64,000 bases of DNA from positions 186,001-250,000 of the forward strand of contig NZ_KB903454.1 of the NCBI RefSeq assembly GCF_000379765.1, in the 5' to 3' direction. How positions within the stretch are numbered: the stretch's first letter is position 1; each line of letters begins with the position of its first letter. The notes under the pieces are model-generated. The model made no database searches. It was not told the DNA's origin and was given only the letters and a program-made list of their open reading frames with translations. The DNA is from Flexithrix dorotheae DSM 6795 (GTDB lineage: Bacteria > Bacteroidota > Bacteroidia > Cytophagales > Flammeovirgaceae). This document shows, one piece after another, positions 17,233 through 57,307 of this stretch. The position numbers and the translations under genes are program-made.

Positions 17233-20200
17233 TTATTGGACTTCCCAAATCCACTTTCCATTGTAATCCAGATAACCAACTTTTCCCCCCGATTCAAGTT
17301 TAATTATTCCTCCACCCAGGGTGGTAATTTTTTCATATTTCAGCTCAGTCAGGAATTTTCCATTCAAATCGGCCAACCCTCTGATCTTCTCCATCTTAGC
17401 CATAAAGTTTTTACTTGGTAAAACTTTCACCCAATCGTAAATTATATCCCCAATTAAATTGCCTTCTTTATCAATCATTCTCCATTTTCCATCATAAATT
17501 TTAGTCCATTTCAAATCCTGAATTACGGTACCATCCATTAGTTTTTCTTTCCGCTTATTGGTATATTTTTCTATATAGCGGTTTTTGTTGGCCAGATTAA
17601 ATCTAATGGTTATTTCCTGTTCTCCCGCTTTTCGGGTTAACTCCCAGACTTCCCCTTTTTTTACAAAAGCAATTGCTCCATAAAATTCGGTTACTTCATC
17701 GTATTTATTAAAATAAGCAGGAGAACCATCCGGTTTGATATGGAATGAGCCTGTGGTAGAAGAGACTATTGCTCTTTCATTGGAAAAACCTTTTTCAACT
17801 TTCCCATTGAGGGTAAATGAGCCAACTACTTTTCCTGTTTTATCAATAATCTGATTTTCATTTACAATGGCATACCCACCAGAAAATGCACCTGCACTTT
17901 TATACTGTTGGGGAATAATCATTTTACCAGATTTATCGATATATCCCCAGGTGCTCCTCTGTAAAACTGCAGCTTTTCCATCACCAAAATCTTTTGCCAG
18001 TTTAAATTTAGGCGCAATTACTTCTTCTCCCTTCTTATTAATATATCCATATAGCTGTTTACTTCTGTCCTTATCATCTAGCCGAACCAGAGCGAGACCG
18101 TCACTAAATGGCTTAATTTCTTTGAATTTGTATTTGGTAATTAAATTGCCCTTCCCGTCAGCCATGGCCAATTTCCCGCCTTTCTCCACAATGGCAAATC
18201 CTTCCGTATCAAATTCCGATTTGTATACCAGTTTTGAAGATTTTGTAAAATTTCCAGCCACTTGATTTTTTTCTGCATTAAACTCAGTATGCGTGGCCTG
18301 GATTTCACCATCAGCGCTTATTTCATGAATAATAGAATCCTTTTTATAAATTTCAAGAATTTGATTTTTAGATTGAGGCAAATAACGAATGCCATCATAT
18401 TCAAAATCCATTACCTTTTCCTTATCCAGATTTAGCACTCCCCACTTTTCCCCTTTTCTGGCAATTACTACCTCTTTCGAAATTTCGCTGAGTTCATCAT
18501 ATTGAAAGGGAATTACAATTTCTCCTTTATAATCAATGTAACCGGCTTTTCCCTCCTTTTTCGCCAAAGCATAGCCAGTACTGTCTTTCCAGGCCTGCAC
18601 AAAAGCTGTATCTATGAAATCATATACTACCGGCACAATTTCATCTCCATGATGATCAATAAAACCAAATTGATTGGAAATTTTTGCTCGGGAAATACCA
18701 TAATTATTTCTCCAAATGGTATCAAAGCGGGCCACCTCATCATATTTGGCAGGAAGGGCAATTTCCCCTTTATAATTTACGTAACCTATTTTTCCTCCTT
18801 TTATCAAAGTGGCAATTCCCTGCTTATTTGTCCAAGCCTCCTCAAAGCCCAAAATTTTGTCGTACTCCGGTTCAATTAATACCTGACCATCCCTTTTGAT
18901 ATACCCAATTCTTCTATATCGTGTTACTGGCCCTACCCCGGTTTGCTCCACCCAGCGATCATATTTAATGGCCGCAATTCCATCATTAAAATCCTCTAGG
19001 AAATCTGCATCTATGGATGGAGAAAGTACTAGCTTCCCGGTTTTACTGATTAACCCCCATTTCCCATTCTTTCTTACTCTGGCTTCTCCATTTTTAAAAG
19101 GATAAATCAATGCATATTCAAAAGGAACAATTTCCTTATTCTGAAGATTAACCACTCCCCATTTACCTTCTCGTCCTCTACCTTTTTTCACCCTGCAAAT
19201 TCCATCTGAAGGCACATCAATACCATCATAAATGAATGGCAGAACTTCCTTGCCGGATTGATCAATACAACCAAACTTTCCCGATTTTCGGGCAATGGCA
19301 TAACCAGCTTTAAAATCACTTCCAACCTCATATTGAAAGGGAATTACCAGATTGGCTTTTGTATCGATATACCCAAAGGAATTTCCCGATCTTACCAAAG
19401 CCCTTTCTGAATTGAAATTACCAATATTTGTAATGGTTTTTCCTTCAATAGCACTAGTTATTTCCCCTGCCTTATTTACCAATGCATCCCAAAGTGTATC
19501 CTGAGTGGCCCGGGCAAATTCACTTTCATTAAAATCGCTGATGATGATATCCTTCAGATCGGATTGGAAGATTATGCTGGCTTTTTCCTGATCAATCAGA
19601 TAGGTTTTTATAATCTCCTTCTCCCCTTTTTGTTTGGGTAATATCACTTCCTTGGCCAGGGTAAGATTTAGTTTTTCATCAATACCAATTTCATAAAATT
19701 CCTTTCCACCAAGTAAATTTTTTCCAACGCCATTTTCAAGAGTATATCTAAACTTGGTTTGGACCCATCTTGGCTTTTTAGCCTCTGGGTTTTCCTGTAA
19801 TTCTTTCATTTGGAGCTTCCTGAATTCAGCTTTTTGGGCTGTTTCCAAAGCTGTTTTGTTGGGATACTCTTTTTTATCGATCAATTCTCCCTTGCCATCG
19901 AATTTTACAACTGTCAGGGCATATCCGATTTTCCCAATGGCCTGAAGACCATTTACCTCTATTTCATCAAATTTGGGATCAAGCAATATATCTCCACCAT
20001 TTCCCAATAATCCCTGTTTGCCATTTTTAATAATTTTGGTGGCAAGAGAATTTTTAGAAAACAGCTCTATTTTATCCAATTCAGGAGCCAAAACCACCTG
20101 ACCATCCATTCTGGCAATTCCGTATTTTTCTGATTTTATAATAGCTAAAACTTTGTCGTTGAGTTGAATCAGGTTATCGTAATCTACCGGAATCATCACC

Positions 20201-20529
20201 TTATTTTCAGAGTCGATCAGGCCGGCCTTAAAACCCTTCCACACCACAAAGTGTTTTTCTCCAACAGGTTTTATTTTATCATAAGTTGGCGGGAATAAAA
20301 CTTTGCCAGAGGCATCCAGCATACCTGATTTTCCGTCTTTTTTCAATATGGCATAACCATTCTTAAAATCACTGATAAAATCAAATTCAGGTGAAATTAT
20401 TAGCTTTCCCTCCTTATTGATAGCTCCCCATTTATTGTCCTTTTTTACCGGATAAAGATCTTGGGATTGAGCATAAAAACAATAAACAAAGAAGAAGCAA
20501 AAAGATAAATAGAATTTTAATTGGTTCAT
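17233..20529 (-). CDS. Giant secreted WG-repeat protein
   Basis: 1098 residues from the chosen start at 20529, which gives a signal peptide (MNQLKFYLSFCFFFVYCFYA, then QSQ); an in-frame ATG at 20565 would add 12 residues. Nearly the whole mature chain is built of WG (KWG) repeats of about 22-45 residues with the pattern G-[YLF]-I-[DN]-x-x-G-x-x-[VI]-[IL]-P-x-x-[YF]-[DE] (for example KAGYIDYKGEIVIPFQYDEL and KWGAINKEGKLIISPEFDF). A Lys/Glu-rich interruption (about 225-330) and another non-repeat stretch near 750-800 break the array. The repeats form beta-type modules and are usually seen in surface or protein-binding proteins; the ligand is unknown. It is monocistronic. Confidence 0.9.
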   Translation of the reverse strand: MNQLKFYLSFCFFFVYCFYAQSQDLYPVKKDNKWGAINKEGKLIISPEFDFISDFKNGYAILKKDGKSGMLDASGKVLFPPTYDKIKPVGEKHFVVWKGFKAGLIDSENKVMIPVDYDNLIQLNDKVLAIIKSEKYGIARMDGQVVLAPELDKIELFSKNSLATKIIKNGKQGLLGNGGDILLDPKFDEIEVNGLQAIGKIGYALTVVKFDGKGELIDKKEYPNKTALETAQKAEFRKLQMKELQENPEAKKPRWVQTKFRYTLENGVGKNLLGGKEFYEIGIDEKLNLTLAKEVILPKQKGEKEIIKTYLIDQEKASIIFQSDLKDIIISDFNESEFARATQDTLWDALVNKAGEITSAIEGKTITNIGNFNSERALVRSGNSFGYIDTKANLVIPFQYEVGSDFKAGYAIARKSGKFGCIDQSGKEVLPFIYDGIDVPSDGICRVKKGRGREGKWGVVNLQNKEIVPFEYALIYPFKNGEARVRKNGKWGLISKTGKLVLSPSIDADFLEDFNDGIAAIKYDRWVEQTGVGPVTRYRRIGYIKRDGQVLIEPEYDKILGFEEAWTNKQGIATLIKGGKIGYVNYKGEIALPAKYDEVARFDTIWRNNYGISRAKISNQFGFIDHHGDEIVPVVYDFIDTAFVQAWKDSTGYALAKKEGKAGYIDYKGEIVIPFQYDELSEISKEVVIARKGEKWGVLNLDKEKVMDFEYDGIRYLPQSKNQILEIYKKDSIIHEISADGEIQATHTEFNAEKNQVAGNFTKSSKLVYKSEFDTEGFAIVEKGGKLAMADGKGNLITKYKFKEIKPFSDGLALVRLDDKDRSKQLYGYINKKGEEVIAPKFKLAKDFGDGKAAVLQRSTWGYIDKSGKMIIPQQYKSAGAFSGGYAIVNENQIIDKTGKVVGSFTLNGKVEKGFSNERAIVSSTTGSFHIKPDGSPAYFNKYDEVTEFYGAIAFVKKGEVWELTRKAGEQEITIRFNLANKNRYIEKYTNKRKEKLMDGTVIQDLKWTKIYDGKWRMIDKEGNLIGDIIYDWVKVLPSKNFMAKMEKIRGLADLNGKFLTELKYEKITTLGGGIIKLESGGKVGYLDYNGKWIWEVQ

Positions 20530-20918
20530 TGCGGGCATTAAGTATTTGGACAAAATTAAATACATTCAATTGTACTATAAGTGTATGATAATGAGATGAT
20601 ATTTCTGAATAAAAAATAGTACTGTAAACTAAACTCAAAAAATTATTTCCATTGAAATATTGAAAAAATGGCAAAACGAAGATTTTTGCCGACTAAAAGT
20701 ATATCGCTATAACGCTAATTTTTTGAGATAATACTAATAAATTAATAGAATTTACAAACGAATTTAATGTATGATTTCAAAAAAGTAGTTAAGACTCAAT
20801 TTCTTTGCCATGGAATGTCTGTACACCATAAAAACTAAAGGAAAAAAATTCGGGGACATCGTTTAACTTGTATAAGCGGGTTTTTCAAGGGAAATTAGAA
20901 GAAAAATCTATTTTGAAA
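20530..20918. other. 389-base divergent intergenic region
   Basis: AT-rich spacer between the WG-repeat gene and the fucosidase gene. The only recognisable element is a possible minus-strand -7 box, read as TAATTTTG at 20551-20558, placed 22 bases before the WG-repeat start but without a matching TTG upstream. The coding frame upstream of the fucosidase ATG can be extended only with a TTG codon (20868). I see nothing else. Confidence 0.5.
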
Positions 20919-33409: not shown

Positions 33410-34696
33410 TCAAGTAGTTTCTTCCATATTTTTAGCAGAAACTACTTTTATTTCCTTATCCAGTTCTTCCCAATCAGTAAAGTTTAATTCTTCCACATAT
33501 TCTGATTCACGCCCCTTAAATATCAATCCCATGGTCATGATTAAACTGGTGAGTAAAATGGTAAATAACAAGATCCCGGAACTGAAGCTTTCCTGCTGAA
33601 ATTCTATTGGAATGGCAAAAAATAAAAGAATAGTAATTAATCCCCTAGGGGCCACAAACAGCTCTGGTAAAATACTTTTATTGCCAAAAATTTTCAGCAT
33701 TAAAAACCGGATAACAAATAAAGTAGCTACAATAGACAAACTAATTAAAGCTGTTTGAACATCCAGAAGAGAAAGCAGATCCAGGGTAATTCCAAATATT
33801 ACAAAAAAGAAAGTACGTACAATAAAGGCTGTTTCAAAGGTCACAATATGCAATTCATGAATTACCAATTTTAAAGCAGATTCCTTTAAAAGTGATTTGA
33901 GTTTTCCCTTAAAAAAGACCTTGTAATTATTGAGCAACAACCCAAAAACAAGAATAATTACCAGGGAAGATAAATGGAACATTTTCCCCACAGCATAAAG
34001 CAACACCAGAACTGCAATCAGCAAAAATAATTTCACCTGAGACTCCATCCGCTGGAAAAGTAAAACAATGGCATAACTCGCTACCACTGACAAAACAACT
34101 GTGGCTAAAATATTCACTACAATTCCCACTACAATCGAACCTGTACCACTTGCTTCTGTGCTTCCCAGAAGAAAATAAAATACCATAATGCCCAGAATAT
34201 CCGAAAAAGTGCTTTCGTAAATCAGAAATTCCTTCTTGCTGTCCACCAGTGAGCCCACACTGGGAATAATAATCGCACTACTCATAATGGAAAGCGGAAC
34301 AGCATATAAAAGAGAAATAAAAATATCATAAAGTAAAACCCTGTGAATGATATAGGCAATGCATCCTGAGGACACAATTAAGGCAAAAAAAGCAACCAAA
34401 AAAGACTTAATAATTAATGGTGCTTTTTCTTTTTTCAATTCCAGGTCGAGAGCTGCTTCCAATACTATCATTATCAACCCTACAATCCCTATGATTTCCA
34501 AAATATCGAAAACATGATTACCCAAAGAAATATTGAAATATTTTAAGGCTTCCTTTATCCCCACCCCCAGGGCAATCAGCATAAGCACACTGGGCACATT
34601 GGTTTTTTTGGCCACCTGGTTGAAAATGTATGACAGAATAATGATCACGCAAACTGAAATAACCAACAAATATGAATTATCTACAACCATTTCCAC
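33410..34696 (-). CDS. Monovalent cation:proton antiporter, CPA superfamily
   Basis: 428 residues with about 11-13 membrane helices up to residue 400 and a short charged tail. The family hallmarks are a negatively charged residue in the ion-binding helix (D166, in ESTFSDILGIMVFYF) facing an unwound helix (PLSIMSSAIIIPSVGS, about 134-149). The fold matches NhaP/Kef-type exchangers that swap Na+ or K+ for H+ across the inner membrane. It lacks the TrkA-type regulatory domains of many Kef proteins. It is divergent from the SLC12-like giant gene across 290 bases, so the two may share regulation as an ion-homeostasis unit. Confidence 0.9.
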   Translation of the reverse strand: MEMVVDNSYLLVISVCVIIILSYIFNQVAKKTNVPSVLMLIALGVGIKEALKYFNISLGNHVFDILEIIGIVGLIMIVLEAALDLELKKEKAPLIIKSFLVAFFALIVSSGCIAYIIHRVLLYDIFISLLYAVPLSIMSSAIIIPSVGSLVDSKKEFLIYESTFSDILGIMVFYFLLGSTEASGTGSIVVGIVVNILATVVLSVVASYAIVLLFQRMESQVKLFLLIAVLVLLYAVGKMFHLSSLVIILVFGLLLNNYKVFFKGKLKSLLKESALKLVIHELHIVTFETAFIVRTFFFVIFGITLDLLSLLDVQTALISLSIVATLFVIRFLMLKIFGNKSILPELFVAPRGLITILLFFAIPIEFQQESFSSGILLFTILLTSLIMTMGLIFKGRESEYVEELNFTDWEELDKEIKVVSAKNMEETT

Positions 34697-34986: not shown

Positions 34987-37900
34987 ATGAGCAAACTAAA
35001 AAAATTCGGAACATTTGGTGGCGTTTTTACCCCCTCTATTCTTACCATTCTGGGGGTAATCATGTATTTAAGGCTGCCCATGATTATTGGGGAATCAGGC
35101 TTAATGGCTACTATTGGTATTATTGTAATTGCACATATTATTTCTGCCACCACCGGGCTAAGTGTTTCCTCTATTGCCACCGATAAAAAGGTTGAAGCAG
35201 GAGGTACTTACTACATGATTTCCAGGAGTTTAGGATTGCCCATTGGAGGCACTTTAGGACTTGCACTTTTTGTTGGGCTTTCCTTCAGTGTCAGTTTATA
35301 CCTGATAGGATTTTCGGAGAGTTTTTTAAATTATTTCGATTTTGAAGTAACTAAGGATGCCATTCGGATAACAGGAACTTTAATACTGATTGCAGTAACT
35401 ACCATTACTTTTATAAGTACTTCATTGGCCATAAAAACACAGTACTTCATTATGGCTGCCATTATTTTATCCTTAATATCCATCATCTTTGGGCAGCACG
35501 AATATCAGCCTACCGAACCATTAATTTCTTCTAATTCATCCACAGTGCCCCTAATGGTTTTATTTGGAATCTTTTTCCCGGCAGTAACGGGGTTTGAAGC
35601 AGGAGTTTCCATGTCGGGGGATTTACAGGATCCTAAAAAATCTATTCCAACTGGTTCGATCAGTGCCATAATAGTAGGATTTGTGGTTTACATTGCCCTG
35701 GCTTTTTTCTTTTCATACACGGTGGATGCCAATTTACTGGCCAATGATTCTCAGGTTTTATTGAAAATTTCCTGGATTCCCCAGTTAGTGGTAGCCGGAA
35801 TTTGGGGCGCCACTTTATCATCTGCATTAGGGAGTATTTTGGGAGCGCCAAGAATCCTGCAGGCCACTGCAGTGGATAAAATTAGCTGGAAAATATTTGC
35901 AAAAGGTGTTGGTGCTTCCAATGAGCCCAGAAATGCACTTTTGCTCACTTTTGCTATTGCCGAGTTCGGAATTTTGATAGGAGAACTGGATGTAATCGCC
36001 AGAATCGTTTCAATATTTTTCATTACTACTTACGGATTCTTAAACCTCAGTTGCGCTTTTGAGGCCTGGACCAGTGCCGATTTTCGTCCGGAGTTTAAAA
36101 CCCCTATCTGGGTTAGCTTACTTGGTGCAGTTGCCTGTATCATTGTAATGATTCAACTGGACTTTTTGGCTATGCTGGGAGCAACTTTAATTCTGGGGGC
36201 TTTATTCCTTTTCTTAAAAAGAAGGGAACTGAACCTGGAATCGGGAGATGCTTGGAGTGGAGTTTGGGCCTCTCTGGTAAAAACCGGTCTGGAACGCCTT
36301 GATCAGACTAATCTGCATGCCAGAAACTGGAGGCCAAATATCATCATGTTTAAGGGAAAGGATGAAGCCAGGCCTCATCTGGTAGAAATGGGACAGGCTG
36401 TAGCAGGGAAACTGGGCATTTTAACAGGATTCGAACTCATTCAGTCTGATGGAGAAATGTTGGCTAAGGCTAAGCCAATTCTTACCGAAGGAGCCACCAA
36501 AGGAAGATACTTTAATCACAAGCATTTTTGCAAAGACATTTATTCGGGGATTGATGAAGTATCCCGGCTCTACGGATTTTCCGGAGTACAACCTAACACC
36601 GTATTAATGGGTTGGAGCAAACAGGAAAAAAATAAGGAAAAGTTCGTGAGTGCAGTTAAAAGTTTCGAGCTCAATAATTACAATGCCATTTTCCTACATT
36701 ACCAGCCTGAAAAGAAATTTGGGGCACACAAAACCATAGATATCTGGTGGAGTGGTATGGGAAGGAACCTGGCTTTAAGCATCAACCTCATCAGGCATAT
36801 CACTTCCGGAGACCAATGGAAATCCGTAAAAATTCGACTTTTGGTAATAGCCAATGTCTCTTTTCAAAAAGATACTGTATTTAAATCTATTGAAAAAATC
36901 CTGGATAATTACCGGGTAGATATGGAAATAAAAATCATTAATAATGCGGTAGATAAATTACCGAAACCTGAAATCATTTTAAATGAATCGGGAAACACAG
37001 ACCTTACGGTAATTGGGATACAGGATAAACATTACCAAAAAATAAATGAAACCATTGCCGAAATCAATCACCTGATCAATCATCTGGGAACTACCCTAAT
37101 ACTACACGCATCCAGCTCTTTTGAGGAATATTCCCTTGGTTTTGAAAAAGAATCTAACTTATTAAATCTGGCAGATAGTTTTGGCCAGGAAATACTGGTT
37201 TTGCCCGAACTCCAGCAATCCAAATATCCAGTGATCAATAACGAAGTCAAAAAAATTGACACCAATGGTCAAAAAGTTTTGGAACTCTTATTTCAGAAAA
37301 CATTTGTTCCCTATTTTCAGGAAAATGCCAGGTTAAATAAAGAGCTGGAAACCGTAACTTCTGCCTTATTTGGTTTGTTGAAAAAAGCAATCGCCTACAA
37401 AGATTCCTACAGAAGAACCCGGGCATTTTACAAAGCCAAAAATGATTTCTATTTCAGGTCAAGGAAATTGCTAGAAAGTTTGCAGAATCAGGCCTTAGAA
37501 CAGCAGAGGGAAGCCTTAACAAACGGAATTAACTGGTATATTTCCAGGTTGAAAAGTGATATTTTAAGATTTCCGAAAGGATTCAATGTGCCTTTTAATA
37601 AAGAGGATTTTATGCTGAAAAAAGACGATCCATTTGGATTAAAAACCCTTAAAATACGAAAAAGAGCAGGTAATCCTTTTGCCAAGCACAGCATAAATTT
37701 ACTGATTAGTTACAGGCAAATAGCCAGATATTATTTGCAGGACAATAGATTTTTGTTTTTTAATGCCTTCCTTGAAGAATTCGACAGACTTTCGATGGAA
37801 TATTTATCGGGAATTAAAAAGTTCAATAATCTGATAAATGATCTTTTTGATGAACTGGAAAAGAAACTTTCTACAGAAAGTGGCACCTCCATTTTGGAGG

Positions 37901-40098
37901 AGAAAAAAGCAGCCATTGAAAGCCTTACTCAAAACCTGATTGAAAATCAGGGAAAAGATATGAAATTGTTTCAGAACCGCTTACAGGTAGAGTTTAGGAA
38001 AAACCTCCAACTTATGGTAAGCAGTATGGAACAACTGAATATCAATACATTAATCCAAGAAAAACGTAAGGGAAAAACCTTTTATAAAAAACTGGAAACC
38101 GACATCACTGATTTTCCCGAGGTATGGTATGAGGAGGTGAACAATTTCACCAATAAAATCTTCCTGGAAACTGTGATGGCAGGCACAAAAAGCAGGATAA
38201 AGGAAGAAATGGACGATTACCTCAGGGAAATGAATATGCTTCTTGATAATAAGGTAATTAAGGAAATTGAGGCGGTAAAGAAAACGGTAAAAAAGAGCTC
38301 GAATGAATCTTTGCCGGAACTAAAACTGGATTTTGAAAGTGAATCCATTAACCTGCTACATGGCTTTGCTGAAAAACAGGAAGAAATTGGAAAATTAATC
38401 CAGTCACTTCCGGAATCTATTACCATCGCGTCTCCTTCAATTTCTGAGCACACTTCCCTTACAGGACAAAAATCCGAGAACCAAATGGATGAAGTGGCCA
38501 ATATTCCAGCGGCCAGAATCACCAATCATTTTATGGAATCCAGGTTTTTTGGGCCAACTCAGGATTATTTTGAAGATGTAAATGAAAGCATTAAAAATAA
38601 AATGCTGGGCATTAAAGACCATTTAAGTCTGATGAGGTTTAATATGGAAAACATTGATGCTGAAAATGATGATGTCGGAAAAACCAATGGCGATATTAAA
38701 GAAAGAACACTCCAAAAAATTCAATCAGAAGAAAATGAATTGAAGGAAATCAAAAGTGTACTACATCAAAAAATACAGGAAAATATTGAAAGTGCTTTTC
38801 AGCCTTTAACATCTTATACGATTGTAGAAAGTGCAGGGGAATTTGTGCAGTTCTTAAGAGACTATCAAAGCAAAAGAGTGCTTTCGAAATTTGGAGCTTT
38901 CAGGGAGGAGATTAAGGAAACTATCAGAAATTTTTCTGCAAAATTATTATATTCCAGAAGCGGGGGAATTTTGCTGGCCAAAAAACTAATTGAAGATGAA
39001 CAACTTCGACCACTTAATGGCAAAATTCTGGATTTAGTAGAGGTGGTCAGTCCGGATGCAGAAGTGTTGGCTAACCTTCCTCATTATTACAAAAATCTAT
39101 TCAGTGGCAGGTCCAGTATCAGTGACGATTTTTGGATCTCCCGAAAAAAGGAAGAAGAGTTGTTGAAAAAATCCTTCAATCGCCTGCAAAGAGGTGTTCC
39201 CGGAGGAGTATTATTATTGGGAGAGCGCAATTCTGGTAAGACGGCCTTTTGTCGACATATCAGCACAAAGTTGTTTAAAAAAGAAAAAACATTTCACATT
39301 TTTCCTCCAAAATCAGGATCAGTACATTCAAAGGATTTTGTGAATACCATTCAGGAAGTCACCCAGATTGACGGACCTTTGGAGCTAATCCTCAACCGGG
39401 TTCCTGCAGGCTCGGCATTCATTATCCACGATATGGAAATGTGGTGGGAAAGACAACAGGAAGGATTGGAAGTAGTCCTTTTGGTAAAGCAATTGATTTA
39501 TGATTATGGCCACAAGTTTTTCTTTTTGGTGAATATGAATCCTTTCACTTTTGAGCTATTAAATCAACTTTGCACCTTTCAGGAGAGTTTTACGGAAGTT
39601 ATGCGTTTTACGCCATTTGATGCGGAAAGCCTGAAAAACCTGGTCATTTCCCGTCATCAATCCAGTGGGATTAAATTTAGCCTGAATGAAAAATCAGAAG
39701 AGGATATTTCTGAAATAAAAATGGCGAATTTATTCAATAAGTTTTTCAATTATTCTCAGGGAAATCCGGGAGTTGCCCTCAATACCTGGATTTCTGCCAT
39801 AGAAAAGGTTTATCTCAATACCATAGAAATTGTACCTCCTGAAAGCCCAGAAATAGATGTACTGGATAAAATGAAACCTGAATGGCTTATCATACTGGAA
39901 AACTTTATCCTGCACAAAAGACTCACCTATCCGAAATTAAGGAGAATTTTGGGCATACCACAGGAAGAAATTAAAGATTTAATTGAAAACATTAAAAGGA
40001 CAGGCCTGGTGGAGGAGAATAAATCTGAAATTCTCATTATTAATCCCTATGTGGAGTTCTTAATCATCAAAATTTTAAAACAAAAAGGAATTATTTAA
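34987..40098 (+). CDS. SLC12-like permease fused to a helical region, P-loop ATPase and winged-helix-like end
   Basis: 1703 residues. Residues about 1-430 form a permease of the cation-chloride cotransporter (SLC12) branch of the APC superfamily, with GVFTPSILTILGVIMYLRLP at the start and GGTYYMISRSLGLPIGGTLG in helix 3. From NWRPNIIMF (about 447) an SLC12-type C-terminal domain runs to about 730. A long charged helical region (about 760-1370) with several coiled coils follows. The P-loop is GERNSGKT (1412-1419), with a Walker B-like IIHDMEMWW (D1482), and the end (about 1630-1700) looks like a winged helix (LTYPKLRRILGIPQEEIKDL). Ordinary bacterial members end after the second domain. An MscS-like gene follows after 3 bases. 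Ion specificity is unknown; K+/Cl- is a family-based guess. Confidence 0.88.
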   Translation: MSKLKKFGTFGGVFTPSILTILGVIMYLRLPMIIGESGLMATIGIIVIAHIISATTGLSVSSIATDKKVEAGGTYYMISRSLGLPIGGTLGLALFVGLSFSVSLYLIGFSESFLNYFDFEVTKDAIRITGTLILIAVTTITFISTSLAIKTQYFIMAAIILSLISIIFGQHEYQPTEPLISSNSSTVPLMVLFGIFFPAVTGFEAGVSMSGDLQDPKKSIPTGSISAIIVGFVVYIALAFFFSYTVDANLLANDSQVLLKISWIPQLVVAGIWGATLSSALGSILGAPRILQATAVDKISWKIFAKGVGASNEPRNALLLTFAIAEFGILIGELDVIARIVSIFFITTYGFLNLSCAFEAWTSADFRPEFKTPIWVSLLGAVACIIVMIQLDFLAMLGATLILGALFLFLKRRELNLESGDAWSGVWASLVKTGLERLDQTNLHARNWRPNIIMFKGKDEARPHLVEMGQAVAGKLGILTGFELIQSDGEMLAKAKPILTEGATKGRYFNHKHFCKDIYSGIDEVSRLYGFSGVQPNTVLMGWSKQEKNKEKFVSAVKSFELNNYNAIFLHYQPEKKFGAHKTIDIWWSGMGRNLALSINLIRHITSGDQWKSVKIRLLVIANVSFQKDTVFKSIEKILDNYRVDMEIKIINNAVDKLPKPEIILNESGNTDLTVIGIQDKHYQKINETIAEINHLINHLGTTLILHASSSFEEYSLGFEKESNLLNLADSFGQEILVLPELQQSKYPVINNEVKKIDTNGQKVLELLFQKTFVPYFQENARLNKELETVTSALFGLLKKAIAYKDSYRRTRAFYKAKNDFYFRSRKLLESLQNQALEQQREALTNGINWYISRLKSDILRFPKGFNVPFNKEDFMLKKDDPFGLKTLKIRKRAGNPFAKHSINLLISYRQIARYYLQDNRFLFFNAFLEEFDRLSMEYLSGIKKFNNLINDLFDELEKKLSTESGTSILEEKKAAIESLTQNLIENQGKDMKLFQNRLQVEFRKNLQLMVSSMEQLNINTLIQEKRKGKTFYKKLETDITDFPEVWYEEVNNFTNKIFLETVMAGTKSRIKEEMDDYLREMNMLLDNKVIKEIEAVKKTVKKSSNESLPELKLDFESESINLLHGFAEKQEEIGKLIQSLPESITIASPSISEHTSLTGQKSENQMDEVANIPAARITNHFMESRFFGPTQDYFEDVNESIKNKMLGIKDHLSLMRFNMENIDAENDDVGKTNGDIKERTLQKIQSEENELKEIKSVLHQKIQENIESAFQPLTSYTIVESAGEFVQFLRDYQSKRVLSKFGAFREEIKETIRNFSAKLLYSRSGGILLAKKLIEDEQLRPLNGKILDLVEVVSPDAEVLANLPHYYKNLFSGRSSISDDFWISRKKEEELLKKSFNRLQRGVPGGVLLLGERNSGKTAFCRHISTKLFKKEKTFHIFPPKSGSVHSKDFVNTIQEVTQIDGPLELILNRVPAGSAFIIHDMEMWWERQQEGLEVVLLVKQLIYDYGHKFFFLVNMNPFTFELLNQLCTFQESFTEVMRFTPFDAESLKNLVISRHQSSGIKFSLNEKSEEDISEIKMANLFNKFFNYSQGNPGVALNTWISAIEKVYLNTIEIVPPESPEIDVLDKMKPEWLIILENFILHKRLTYPKLRRILGIPQEEIKDLIENIKRTGLVEENKSEILIINPYVEFLIIKILKQKGII

Positions 40099-40101
40099 GG
40101 C

Positions 40102-40800
40102 ATGAATCTAATTGTTTTGATATTAGTGGGAATTGGACTTTTCCTCATCGGAAAATTACTGGAAATTTTACTGAGAAAGTTTACCTATCTCAGCCGAAAA
40201 TGGAAAAAAGCAAAACAGTTTGTTTTTATCGTACAGTTTGTATTATTGGTTGGCTACCTTTTTTGGGCTTGTCAATTCACCATGGGCCAAAAACCTTTTT
40301 ATCCTTATCTCAATTTTACCCTGATTTTAATCCTTGCCATTTTTATTTCCCTTTATTTAATTAAGGATTTTATTGCCGGGGTCATTTTCCGTCTTCAAAA
40401 TGATTTAAAACTTAACCAGATTATCCAAACTAGTGAGGTATCAGGAAAAATAATCCGATTTGGCCACACTTTTTTAAAGGTAGAAACCCTAGGTGGTGAT
40501 ATTGCAAGTATTCCCTATTCAAGGATTGCCAACAGCATTGTGACAGAAGTTTCCAAAGCTGAAAGTTCAGAACATTCAAAAATACACTTAAAAGCCAGGA
40601 AGAAATACTCAAAGGAAGAAACAAGCAGGAATATTAAAGTTTTTATTTTAAACTCTCCTTGGAGTTCGTTTAAAAAACCACCTGTAATTTCTTTTAAAGA
40701 GGAAACAGAAAAAGAGTTCGTATTTGAAATAACAGTACACTCCATTTTAAAGAAACACTCCAATTATCTTGAAGCCGGACTCAGAGAGAAGTTTGAATAA
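40102..40800 (+). CDS. Small MscS-like channel protein
   Basis: 232 residues with three membrane helices (about 2-24, 41-60 and 72-96) and then an MscS-type beta domain (about 97-165): DFIAGVIFRLQNDLKLNQII, SGKIIRFGHTFLKVETLGGD and IASIPYSRIANSIVTEVSKA correspond to the pore-helix exit, the GxIxxI strand and the IPNS-like motif. The C-terminal part (about 170-232) is a short charged alpha/beta tail. It resembles the smaller MscS-like proteins rather than MscK. The ATG lies 3 bases after the stop of the SLC12-ATPase giant gene, which indicates co-translation, and a strong terminator ends the pair. Gating by tension is family knowledge; a role together with the transporter is inference. Confidence 0.82.
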   Translation: MNLIVLILVGIGLFLIGKLLEILLRKFTYLSRKWKKAKQFVFIVQFVLLVGYLFWACQFTMGQKPFYPYLNFTLILILAIFISLYLIKDFIAGVIFRLQNDLKLNQIIQTSEVSGKIIRFGHTFLKVETLGGDIASIPYSRIANSIVTEVSKAESSEHSKIHLKARKKYSKEETSRNIKVFILNSPWSSFKKPPVISFKEETEKEFVFEITVHSILKKHSNYLEAGLREKFE

Positions 40801-55504: not shown

Positions 55505-57307
55505 TTAACCTAATTCCCTGGTCTGCTTTCGCAACTGACTTCTGTAAATTGAAAAAATCTTTGACTTGGATAAAAAGCCTTCGTATCTCCCATTTTTGGC
55601 TACCGGCAAATTCCAGGCATTAGTTTTATCAAATTTGTCCATTACAACCTCCATGGAGTCGGAAATATCGATAATCGCAGGAGGTTTAGACATGAGCAGT
55701 TTGATTTGTTTTTCCTGATAGAGTTCCGATTTAAAAATTAATTTCCGGACATCATTTAATAGAATAATCCCCTTTAATTCCCGCTCTTCCCCCACTACAG
55801 GAAATATATTTCTGGTAGATCTGGCCACAGCTTCTACTAAATCGCCCAACATGCCATCTTCCTTTACGGTCACAAAATCCCGTTCGATTACTGCATTCAT
55901 TCTGATATCCTGCAATACTGTTTTATCCTTATCATGAATTATATAATCTCCTTTTAGGGCTAATTGTTTGGTATAAAAAGAATGGGATTCAAAATAAATT
56001 TTGATGGCAAATGAAATTGCTGAAAGAAGCATAAGCGGAACCAGCAAATCATAGCCTCTGGTAATTTCAGCGATAAGGAAAATTTTGGTTAAGGGAGAAT
56101 GAAGAATTCCACTACTTACTCCCGCCATACCTACCAGGGTAAAATTGGTTTCCGATAATAGAAGATCGGGGAAAAGTAAATTAAGTGCCCGGGCAAAAAT
56201 AAACCCGGCCAGTCCTCCCATAAACATGGATGGGGCAAATACCCCTCCTATTCCTCCGGCAGCCCGGGTTAGACCTGTGGCAAATACTTTTAACAACATA
56301 GAAGCCAGAAGAAATCCTAACAAAATCCAGTCATTTCCATAAGAAAAACCGAAAAATGTACCATCAGTTAATCCATAAGCATCCCCCCGAATAATTTTGG
56401 CTAAAGCATAATATCCTTCACCGTACAAAATGGGAAAAAATAAAATCAAAACACCAAGAATTCCCCCTCCAATTAAAAGCCTCTGTTTTTTTTGCTTTAT
56501 TTTCCCAATCTGATTTTCGACCAGATAAATCATTTTCATGAAATAAATAGAAAGAAACCCACAAATCACACCCAAAAGGATAAAGAATAACAATTCCCTG
56601 TTCTTCACAGGATCGATTTCAGTAAAATGAAACAGGACTTCTTCCCCCATTAGCAATTGGGAAACCATGGTGCCAACAACAGCCGAAATCAATAAAGGAA
56701 TAATAAAAACTATATTCAGGTTGGCAATAATGACTTCCAGCACAAAAATTACCCCGGCTACCGGAGCATTGAAAATTGCGGAAATAGCAGCCGCAGAGCC
56801 ACATCCAATAAGAATTGTGGTATGTCGGCTATTTAAATGAAAAAAACTTCCATAATAAGAACCCCAGGCCGAACCAGTTACCACCACCGGGCCCTCCAGC
56901 CCTACTGACCCTCCAAAGCCCACTGTCAACCCTCCTGTAATGGCCTGAATAAACCGGTTTATTTTTTTAATAAAAGAGGAATTCCTGCCGATAGAATAAA
57001 GCACATAAGGGATTCCTTTTTCCAGTTTGCCTTTAGCAAATATTTTAATTACTAAAACACTCAGGCTAATACCAATGATAGGCAGTATCACAATAATGAA
57101 CCTGTCTACACCCTGGAATAAATCTCCCTCAAAAAATTCTTTTATGAAATAAACAAAGGACTTTAAAGCCACAACTATTACCCCAATTTCAATCCCAAGA
57201 AAAACACTTAAAATCAGGATAAACCGCTGGTCACTTACATGGCGAATACGCCATTTTAGGAAGGCAATAAACTTTTCATTAAAAAATTGGGCAATTTTAA
57301 GCCACAT
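55505..57307 (-). CDS. ClC-family chloride channel or transporter with CBS pair
   Basis: 600 residues. The membrane part (about 25-440) carries the family signatures: GFGGSVGLEGPVV with the gating Glu at 138 and GGIGGVFAPSMFMGG. The stretch NAPVAGVIFVLEVIIANLNI has Glu-Val where proton-coupled exchangers usually have Glu-Glu (the second, proton-relay Glu is replaced by Val), as in true chloride channels. The GSGIP motif that lines the central anion site reads EKGIP. Two CBS domains (about 465-520 and 535-590) follow and should bind an adenine nucleotide. It may conduct chloride or another small anion (fluoride is possible in some subgroups); mode cannot be proven by sequence. It is isolated in its orientation block. 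Confidence 0.92.
   Translation of the reverse strand: MWLKIAQFFNEKFIAFLKWRIRHVSDQRFILILSVFLGIEIGVIVVALKSFVYFIKEFFEGDLFQGVDRFIIVILPIIGISLSVLVIKIFAKGKLEKGIPYVLYSIGRNSSFIKKINRFIQAITGGLTVGFGGSVGLEGPVVVTGSAWGSYYGSFFHLNSRHTTILIGCGSAAAISAIFNAPVAGVIFVLEVIIANLNIVFIIPLLISAVVGTMVSQLLMGEEVLFHFTEIDPVKNRELLFFILLGVICGFLSIYFMKMIYLVENQIGKIKQKKQRLLIGGGILGVLILFFPILYGEGYYALAKIIRGDAYGLTDGTFFGFSYGNDWILLGFLLASMLLKVFATGLTRAAGGIGGVFAPSMFMGGLAGFIFARALNLLFPDLLLSETNFTLVGMAGVSSGILHSPLTKIFLIAEITRGYDLLVPLMLLSAISFAIKIYFESHSFYTKQLALKGDYIIHDKDKTVLQDIRMNAVIERDFVTVKEDGMLGDLVEAVARSTRNIFPVVGEERELKGIILLNDVRKLIFKSELYQEKQIKLLMSKPPAIIDISDSMEVVMDKFDKTNAWNLPVAKNGRYEGFLSKSKIFSIYRSQLRKQTRELG

Follow-up and report, generated by a model that had tools for sequence, protein, structure and literature searches.

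The locus considered here, from Flexithrix dorotheae DSM 6795, raises the question of what might be done by a single protein that joins an SLC12-type transporter to an ATPase through a long helical arm, and whose gene is followed directly by one for an MscS-like protein. SLC12 is a family of human diuretic targets, and bulk salt uptake by bacteria in relation to cell volume is mostly discussed in terms of second messengers and RCK-gated channels. The first-pass annotation of the window (the whole stretch of 64,000 nucleotides that was analysed) proposed a bacterial volume-control module, in which salt uptake by the transporter would be coupled to release through the channel. We arrive at a different arrangement of the same parts, to which we give about an even chance: an ion- or volume-homeostasis complex, in which the AAA+ ATPase would regulate an NKCC-like cotransporter and be informed by an MscS-derived subunit.

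The features of the locus are collected in Table 1. The fusion was described from the outset as a single gene, and its reading frame, which starts with ATG, is indeed open from end to end, with the Walker A motif and D1482 of the Walker B motif at the residues first given for them. An artefactual fusion by frameshift or assembly error, which had been named as a danger, is rejected, as uninterrupted full-length relatives of about 30-86% identity occur in many genomes. Promoter and terminator scans at the locus performed no better than shuffles.

Table 1. Features of the fusion locus, with positions in the window
Feature	Position	Strand	Basis
Fusion gene (NKCC-like SLC12 transporter, helical arm, AAA+ ATPase, winged helix)	34987..40098	+	ORF, 1703 aa; full-length relatives known
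SLC12 membrane domain, residues 1-412	34987..36222	+	PF00324 6.1e-45; KCC/NKCC in PDB
NKCC-type sodium site A275-T-L-S278-S279	35809..35823	+	Alignment with NKCC1 A610, S613, S614
SLC12-type cytoplasmic C-terminal domain, residues 447-715	36325..37131	+	PF03522 0.00055 (below cut-off); PDB matches to CCC C-terminal domains
Helical arm, about residues 748-1340	37228..39006	+	AF2 model; arm profile homology to other arrangements
AAA+ ATPase domain, about residues 1359-1624	39061..39858	+	Foldseek Cdc6 1fnn 8.2e-8; VIA Z 16.2 to ORC2 1w5t
Walker A GERNSGKT, residues 1412-1419	39220..39243	+	Sequence
Walker B IIHDMEMWW, residues 1479-1487	39421..39447	+	Sequence
Winged-helix end, residues 1624-1703	39856..40095	+	AF2 secondary structure; alignment to ORC2 winged helix
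MscS-like partner, 232 aa (three TM helices, beta domain, alpha/beta domain)	40102..40800	+	MS_channel_2nd 1.4e-7; AF2; Foldseek
Divergent Na+/H+ exchanger gene, facultative member	33410..34696	-	PF00999 3.3e-16

The reading of the N-terminal part as an SLC12-like permease is borne out. In a Pfam profile search the membrane domain matches AA_permease (PF00324), its nearest relatives in the PDB are KCC and NKCC proteins (down to 1.1e-77), and KCCs rank first by phmmer for the domain as a whole. TIGR00930 is matched at 3e-113, but with 379.8 bits against a curated cut-off of 953.4, and the fusion transporter is related to the K-Cl cotransporter of that model and is not a member of the curated subfamily. 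The SLC12 C-terminal domain that had been claimed is also present, but its PF03522 match reaches only 19.5 bits where the Pfam cut-off is 27. The membrane domain is the best-conserved part of the fusion, with a mean identity of 64% across 68 relatives.

The ion sites of NKCC1 allow a closer comparison. Its sodium site consists of A610, S613 and S614 (PMC7889885, PMC10786066), with less than 10% of activity left in S613 or S614 mutants, while Y383, P496 and T499 make up the K+ site and G301-V302-M303 the first Cl- site (PMC7889885). A275, S278 and S279 of the fusion align with the sodium site and are invariant in all 69 fusions, and KCC4 carries S, G and A at these positions. The K+ site is represented by Y105, P198 and T201 and the first Cl- site by G23-V24-I25, again invariant across the 69 fusions save for T201 (67/69). 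Most of these NKCC1-type residues are common to ordinary bacterial SLC12 proteins too and are not peculiar to the fusion. Because the transport sites are intact, Na+-dependent cotransport of K+ and Cl- into the cell is predicted, with direction and ion stoichiometry resting on homology to NKCC1.

The remainder of the protein was modelled with AlphaFold2 (residues 715-1703, single chain, 68 sequences, pLDDT 87.0). The model predicts long helices over the arm, then an AAA+ domain and then a winged helix, in agreement with the helical stretch of ~600 residues, the P-loop NTPase and the winged-helix-like end first read from the sequence. Cdc6 (1fnn) is the best Foldseek match of the AAA+ region, and VIA aligns the model to A. 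pernix ORC2 (1w5t) over 322 residues, winged helix included, with an rmsd of 5.5; the ATPase is accordingly modelled as an AAA+ domain with winged helix of ORC/Cdc6-like fold. The structure matches listed cover essentially the AAA+ part alone, and the arm is not claimed as a new fold. Profile searches are less specific: AAA_16 is matched below its gathering cut-off (22.2 against 32.6 bits), nSTAND profiles match weakly and also below cut-off, no repeat domain is seen in the protein, and Pfam, NCBIfam and PADLOC searches over the arm-ATPase of the window protein returned only general AAA and STAND-type matches.

Of 79 SLC12 fusions, 78 retain the Walker A lysine, compared with 25 of 42 other family members; at the Walker B positions, D is present in 67 of the 79 and E in 74. 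The SLC12 fusions are probably under selection to bind or hydrolyse nucleotide. Other arrangements appear to tolerate loss of Walker A, the Flavobacteria-type members having Ala or Ser in place of the lysine, and ATP hydrolysis is likely dispensable for the family as a whole because several free members lack this residue.

How widely is this combination found? Among 58 relatives, the full or nearly full-length fusion occurs, with identities of 35-86%, in the same genome and four others, and many of the rest are ordinary SLC12 proteins only (~750 aa, about 30% identity). Sampling 395 genomes from the class added six further SLC12 fusions as well as free-standing ATPases; the distribution is patchy, with 28 of the 395 matched at E<=1e-3. 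When 84,980 named species genomes were scanned with the full-length alignment as query, at least 80 loci were recovered, with a bias to SLC12-bearing members, and at least 68 loci besides that of the window, in several phyla, have a gene that reaches the ATPase. Among the matches listed, most fusions are in Bacteroidota (Fulvivirga, Mangrovivirga, Marinigracilibium, Labilibaculum, Paludibacter), with further records titled Neomarinimicrobiota, Calditrichota, Ignavibacteriae, Chlorobiota, Gemmatimonadetes, SAR324 and Myxococcota, the last including the named strains Paraliomyxa miuraensis and Enhygromyxa salina; many of the loci are metagenome bins, and their taxonomy is given as titled. Only two pairs within the 68 relatives listed exceed 80% identity. 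In the ATPase tree the SLC12 fusions cluster strongly (4 state changes against 34.7 in shuffles), which is consistent with few fusion events. Transporter-only close relatives of 47-49% identity, with neither ATPase nor adjacent MscS, occur in Maribacter and other records (L167, L170, L173, L174).

The gene pair is conserved with the fusion. Among the matches listed, an MscS-like gene is next on the same strand in 59 of the 67 fusions with downstream room, compared with a background of 11 MscS-like genes in 533 other ORFs of the same loci. The genes are tightly spaced, with a median gap of -1 nt and at most 35 nt in 51 of 55 measured; in the window the partner ORF starts 3 nt past the fusion stop codon. 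The pairing, whose restriction to close relatives had been seen as a possible objection, extends across several phyla, and such a restriction is rejected. The eight listed fusions without a detected MscS-like neighbour are L111, L118, L121, L123, L126, L128, L134 and L165; L126 has a reduced form of the partner, and L121, L123, L134 and L165 form one clade of the ATPase tree, mostly Chlorobiota by title. L147, L150 and L089 have a second MscS-like gene on the upstream side of the fusion, and in a Calditrichota bin (L107:8134-8880) the MscS-like gene has an in-frame stop after 106 codons, either a sequencing error or a pseudogene.

A Na+/H+ exchanger gene, absent from the first-pass annotation, diverges from the fusion at a distance of 290 nt. 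Among the matches listed, 9 of 68 fusion loci have a divergent exchanger gene directly upstream, and in L095 it stands one ORF further away. As an obligate member of the module it is rejected, since none of the nine exchanger copies sampled from the order's other genomes has the module beside it; it is an associated but facultative member.

The arm is homologous across three more arrangements besides the SLC12 fusion. Its profile from SLC12 fusions matches those of the Na+/H+-exchanger fusions (hhalign E 1.8e-13) and of the free ATPases (1.7e-17), and the three-way comparison is completed by a value of 5.5e-15 between the latter two. A free-standing arm-ATPase may be accompanied by an MscS-like gene and a Na+/H+ exchanger (L070, L071, L081-L087, L241), several of these loci having a small membrane gene too divergent for a significant Pfam match. 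Elsewhere the free ATPase is found with canonical MscS (L072-L078, L235-L243 except L241), and with CorA beside it in L072. The third arrangement has the PF00999 exchanger itself fused to the arm-ATPase (L225, 7e-19; L226, 3.7e-21; L234, 1.1e-18). MscS comes next; in L225 and L226 it is followed by TrkH, and L225 also has TrkA. The L225-type loci are apparently whole K+/Na+ operons around the controller. L227 and L233 have the same layout, the Pfam exchanger match being absent in L227.

Within the phylum sample, an MscS-type gene adjoins the ATPase in 18 of 19 ATPase loci without SLC12, as against one of 20 ordinary SLC12 control loci, and ordinary SLC12 is rejected as the source of the link. 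Matches of ~100 residues in proteins of ~850 residues, probably ClpB-type AAA, were not counted in the phylum-wide profile search. Since arrangements without SLC12 keep MscS, and ordinary bacterial SLC12 proteins lack both, MscS tracks the ATPase and not SLC12. The first-pass annotation had supposed that a separate ATPase gene with a non-osmotic role would undo the idea of a system; the ATPase does occur free-standing, but in most cases its neighbours remain genes for MscS-like proteins and cation transport. The module is naturally read as serving ion homeostasis, and the notion of volume control keeps its footing in so far as the ATPase is found with ion transporters elsewhere too (Na+/H+ exchangers, TrkH/TrkA, CorA), although not in its mechanism of uptake and release.

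Some of these loci deserve separate mention. The one control locus with an MscS-type neighbour is L209:3964-4500, a short gene (MS_channel_3rd 2.8e-17). The genome of the window has a second, free-standing arm-ATPase of 1013 aa (L077, G000:C3, about 104.8-107.8 kb), with a degenerate Walker A (GEKGSGNT) and a canonical MscS gene (332 aa) downstream of it. In the f44 clade of free ATPases (L067-L069, L092-L094), no MscS was found nearby by HMM and no transporter among the scanned neighbours; the arm-ATPase is about 1120 aa where complete, and both SLC12 and MscS have seemingly been lost.

The partner of the window fusion was rightly called MscS-like, with 31.9 bits to PF00924 (cut-off 20.2), a model of pLDDT 93.9 and a Foldseek match to MscS 6pwn at 2.7e-12, although the partners of L062, L083 and L084 score under the same cut-off. 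Global TM-scores to the best structure rows are only 0.42-0.45, with differing domain angles. It could be that transporter and channel work in opposite directions within a single device, SLC12 loading salt and a true MscS-like pore releasing it under control of the ATPase. We consider this unlikely, even though the operon is conserved, the partner retains three TM helices, the beta domain and the MscS fold, and canonical MscS is paired with free ATPases. Gly and Ala make up 11% of TM3 in the SLC12-fusion partners. In the larger partners that accompany other ATPases the share is 30%, and the pore helix of most is of the canonical GIAVGFAAQD type; by appearance, TM3 is bulky in the larger partners of L225, L226, L234 and L229 as well. 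The Gly/Ala-rich pore helix has been lost in the partners of transporter fusions. Moreover, the downstream gene of Fulvivirga and its kin (L096, L097, L102, L126) encodes 111-116 aa with zero TM helices and resembles the C-terminal alpha/beta domain of the MscS-like partners, N-x-PW motif included (HMM E 1.3e-8, 1.2e-7 and 6.4e-6 at three loci; L126 by resemblance to L102). These two features argue against salt uptake coupled to release through the channel, as first proposed. Because the pore helix is lost and Fulvivirga keeps the soluble domain only, a sensor or docking subunit is more likely than a release valve. Once the ATPase had acquired its own transporter, the pore function of the partner may have relaxed, with the cytoplasmic domain kept for docking or sensing. 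The sequence of the alpha/beta domain is not better conserved than the remainder of the partner.

The ATPase, too, can be read otherwise. AAA+ proteins often remodel complexes, and this general knowledge, together with the attachment of the core to diverse transporters, would fit a factor that helps to assemble membrane transporters and MscS-type oligomers, or controls their quality, and does not regulate transport. Its nearest folds, however, are the ORC/Cdc6/TnsC switches, and covalent fusion to a single transporter would suit regulation better than a catalytic chaperone, leaving such a role distinctly improbable. We regard as very unlikely a conflict or anti-phage system, in which a STAND-like ATPase would detect an infection and the membrane proteins would dissipate the ion gradients. 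The AAA_16/nSTAND-type matches, the patchy distribution and a fast-evolving arm (mean identity 19% across 68 relatives) would all be in keeping with it, but the transporter sites are invariant, the associated genes are TrkH/TrkA, Na+/H+ exchangers and CorA, and no defence genes were seen among annotated neighbours. A PADLOC scan gave no significant anti-phage model, its sole match being mad8, a match to the ATPase fold (0.0031, in the ATPase core).

On the preferred reading, of a cotransporter regulated by its own ATPase, the membrane domain would act as an NKCC-like cotransporter for Na+-coupled K+/Cl- uptake, and its C-terminus would carry a long arm, at the end of which the AAA+ domain and winged helix resemble the ORC/Cdc6 nucleotide switches in their build. 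Nucleotide could drive the AAA+ part to change or to oligomerise, and this, relayed through the arm, could switch transport on or off. The co-translated MscS-derived subunit would dock on the ATPase and give the signal, which may be membrane tension or crowding felt by the cytoplasmic alpha/beta domain; the persistence of this domain alone in Fulvivirga is what one would expect if it docks or senses. The transporter is swapped between arrangements, and since the same core is found attached to a Na+/H+ exchanger or next to TrkH/TrkA or CorA at other loci, the arm-AAA+/MscS core may be a general controller with the transporter as its exchangeable output. More tentatively, and somewhat short of an even chance, we suggest a hitherto undescribed family of AAA+ controllers, nearly always with an MscS-derived sensor, that would respond to membrane tension or crowding by switching interchangeable transporters (NKCC-like, Na+/H+ exchanger, Trk, CorA) in an ATP-dependent manner, as a prokaryotic counterpart of the kinase control of SLC12. 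In eukaryotic CCCs, WNK/SPAK kinases act on flexible termini and no fused ATPase is known.

Each part of the system belongs or relates to a known family, but no description of the SLC12/arm-AAA+/MscS combination was found in the open-access literature. The fusion shares with the cation-chloride cotransporters (SLC12; NKCC1, KCCs; TIGR00930) the membrane and C-terminal domains and the K+, Cl- and NKCC-type Na+ sites, but is longer by ~990 residues, which form the arm, AAA+ domain and winged helix. Its partner has the three TM helices and the beta and alpha/beta domains of MscS/YnaI channels, yet differs from them in its bulky TM3 and short C-terminus, and in Fulvivirga in the loss of the whole membrane part. 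An AAA+ core with C-terminal winged helix is likewise found in ORC/Cdc6, TnsC and STAND-type AAA+ proteins, but here it is tethered to the membrane by a 600-residue arm and linked to an ion transporter, with no hint of a DNA role. Comparable too are Trk/Ktr systems with RCK domains (TrkH/TrkA are even present in the L225-type operon) and CLC channels with CBS domains, in which a cytoplasmic nucleotide-binding module is similarly thought to control an ion transporter; the RCK and CBS folds are, however, unrelated to AAA+, and we know of no RCK- or CBS-gated system that includes an AAA+ ATPase and an MscS-derived subunit.

The locus points to an undescribed bacterial means of controlling salt content or volume. 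A conserved AAA+/MscS-derived controller on varied ion transporters would, if true, be a new regulatory principle, and the bacterial branch of SLC12 would gain a testable built-in regulator. Natural variants allow the parts to be separated, namely the alpha/beta-only partner of Fulvivirga, the degenerate Walker A of the Flavobacteria-type members and the Na+/H+-exchanger fusions. Elsewhere in the window are a WG-repeat protein of 1110 residues with no assigned role (17233-20565; PF14903 5e-116) and a CLC-type chloride channel with a CBS domain (55505-57307; PF00654 3.2e-74), which lies ~15 kb downstream of the module and is probably independent of it.
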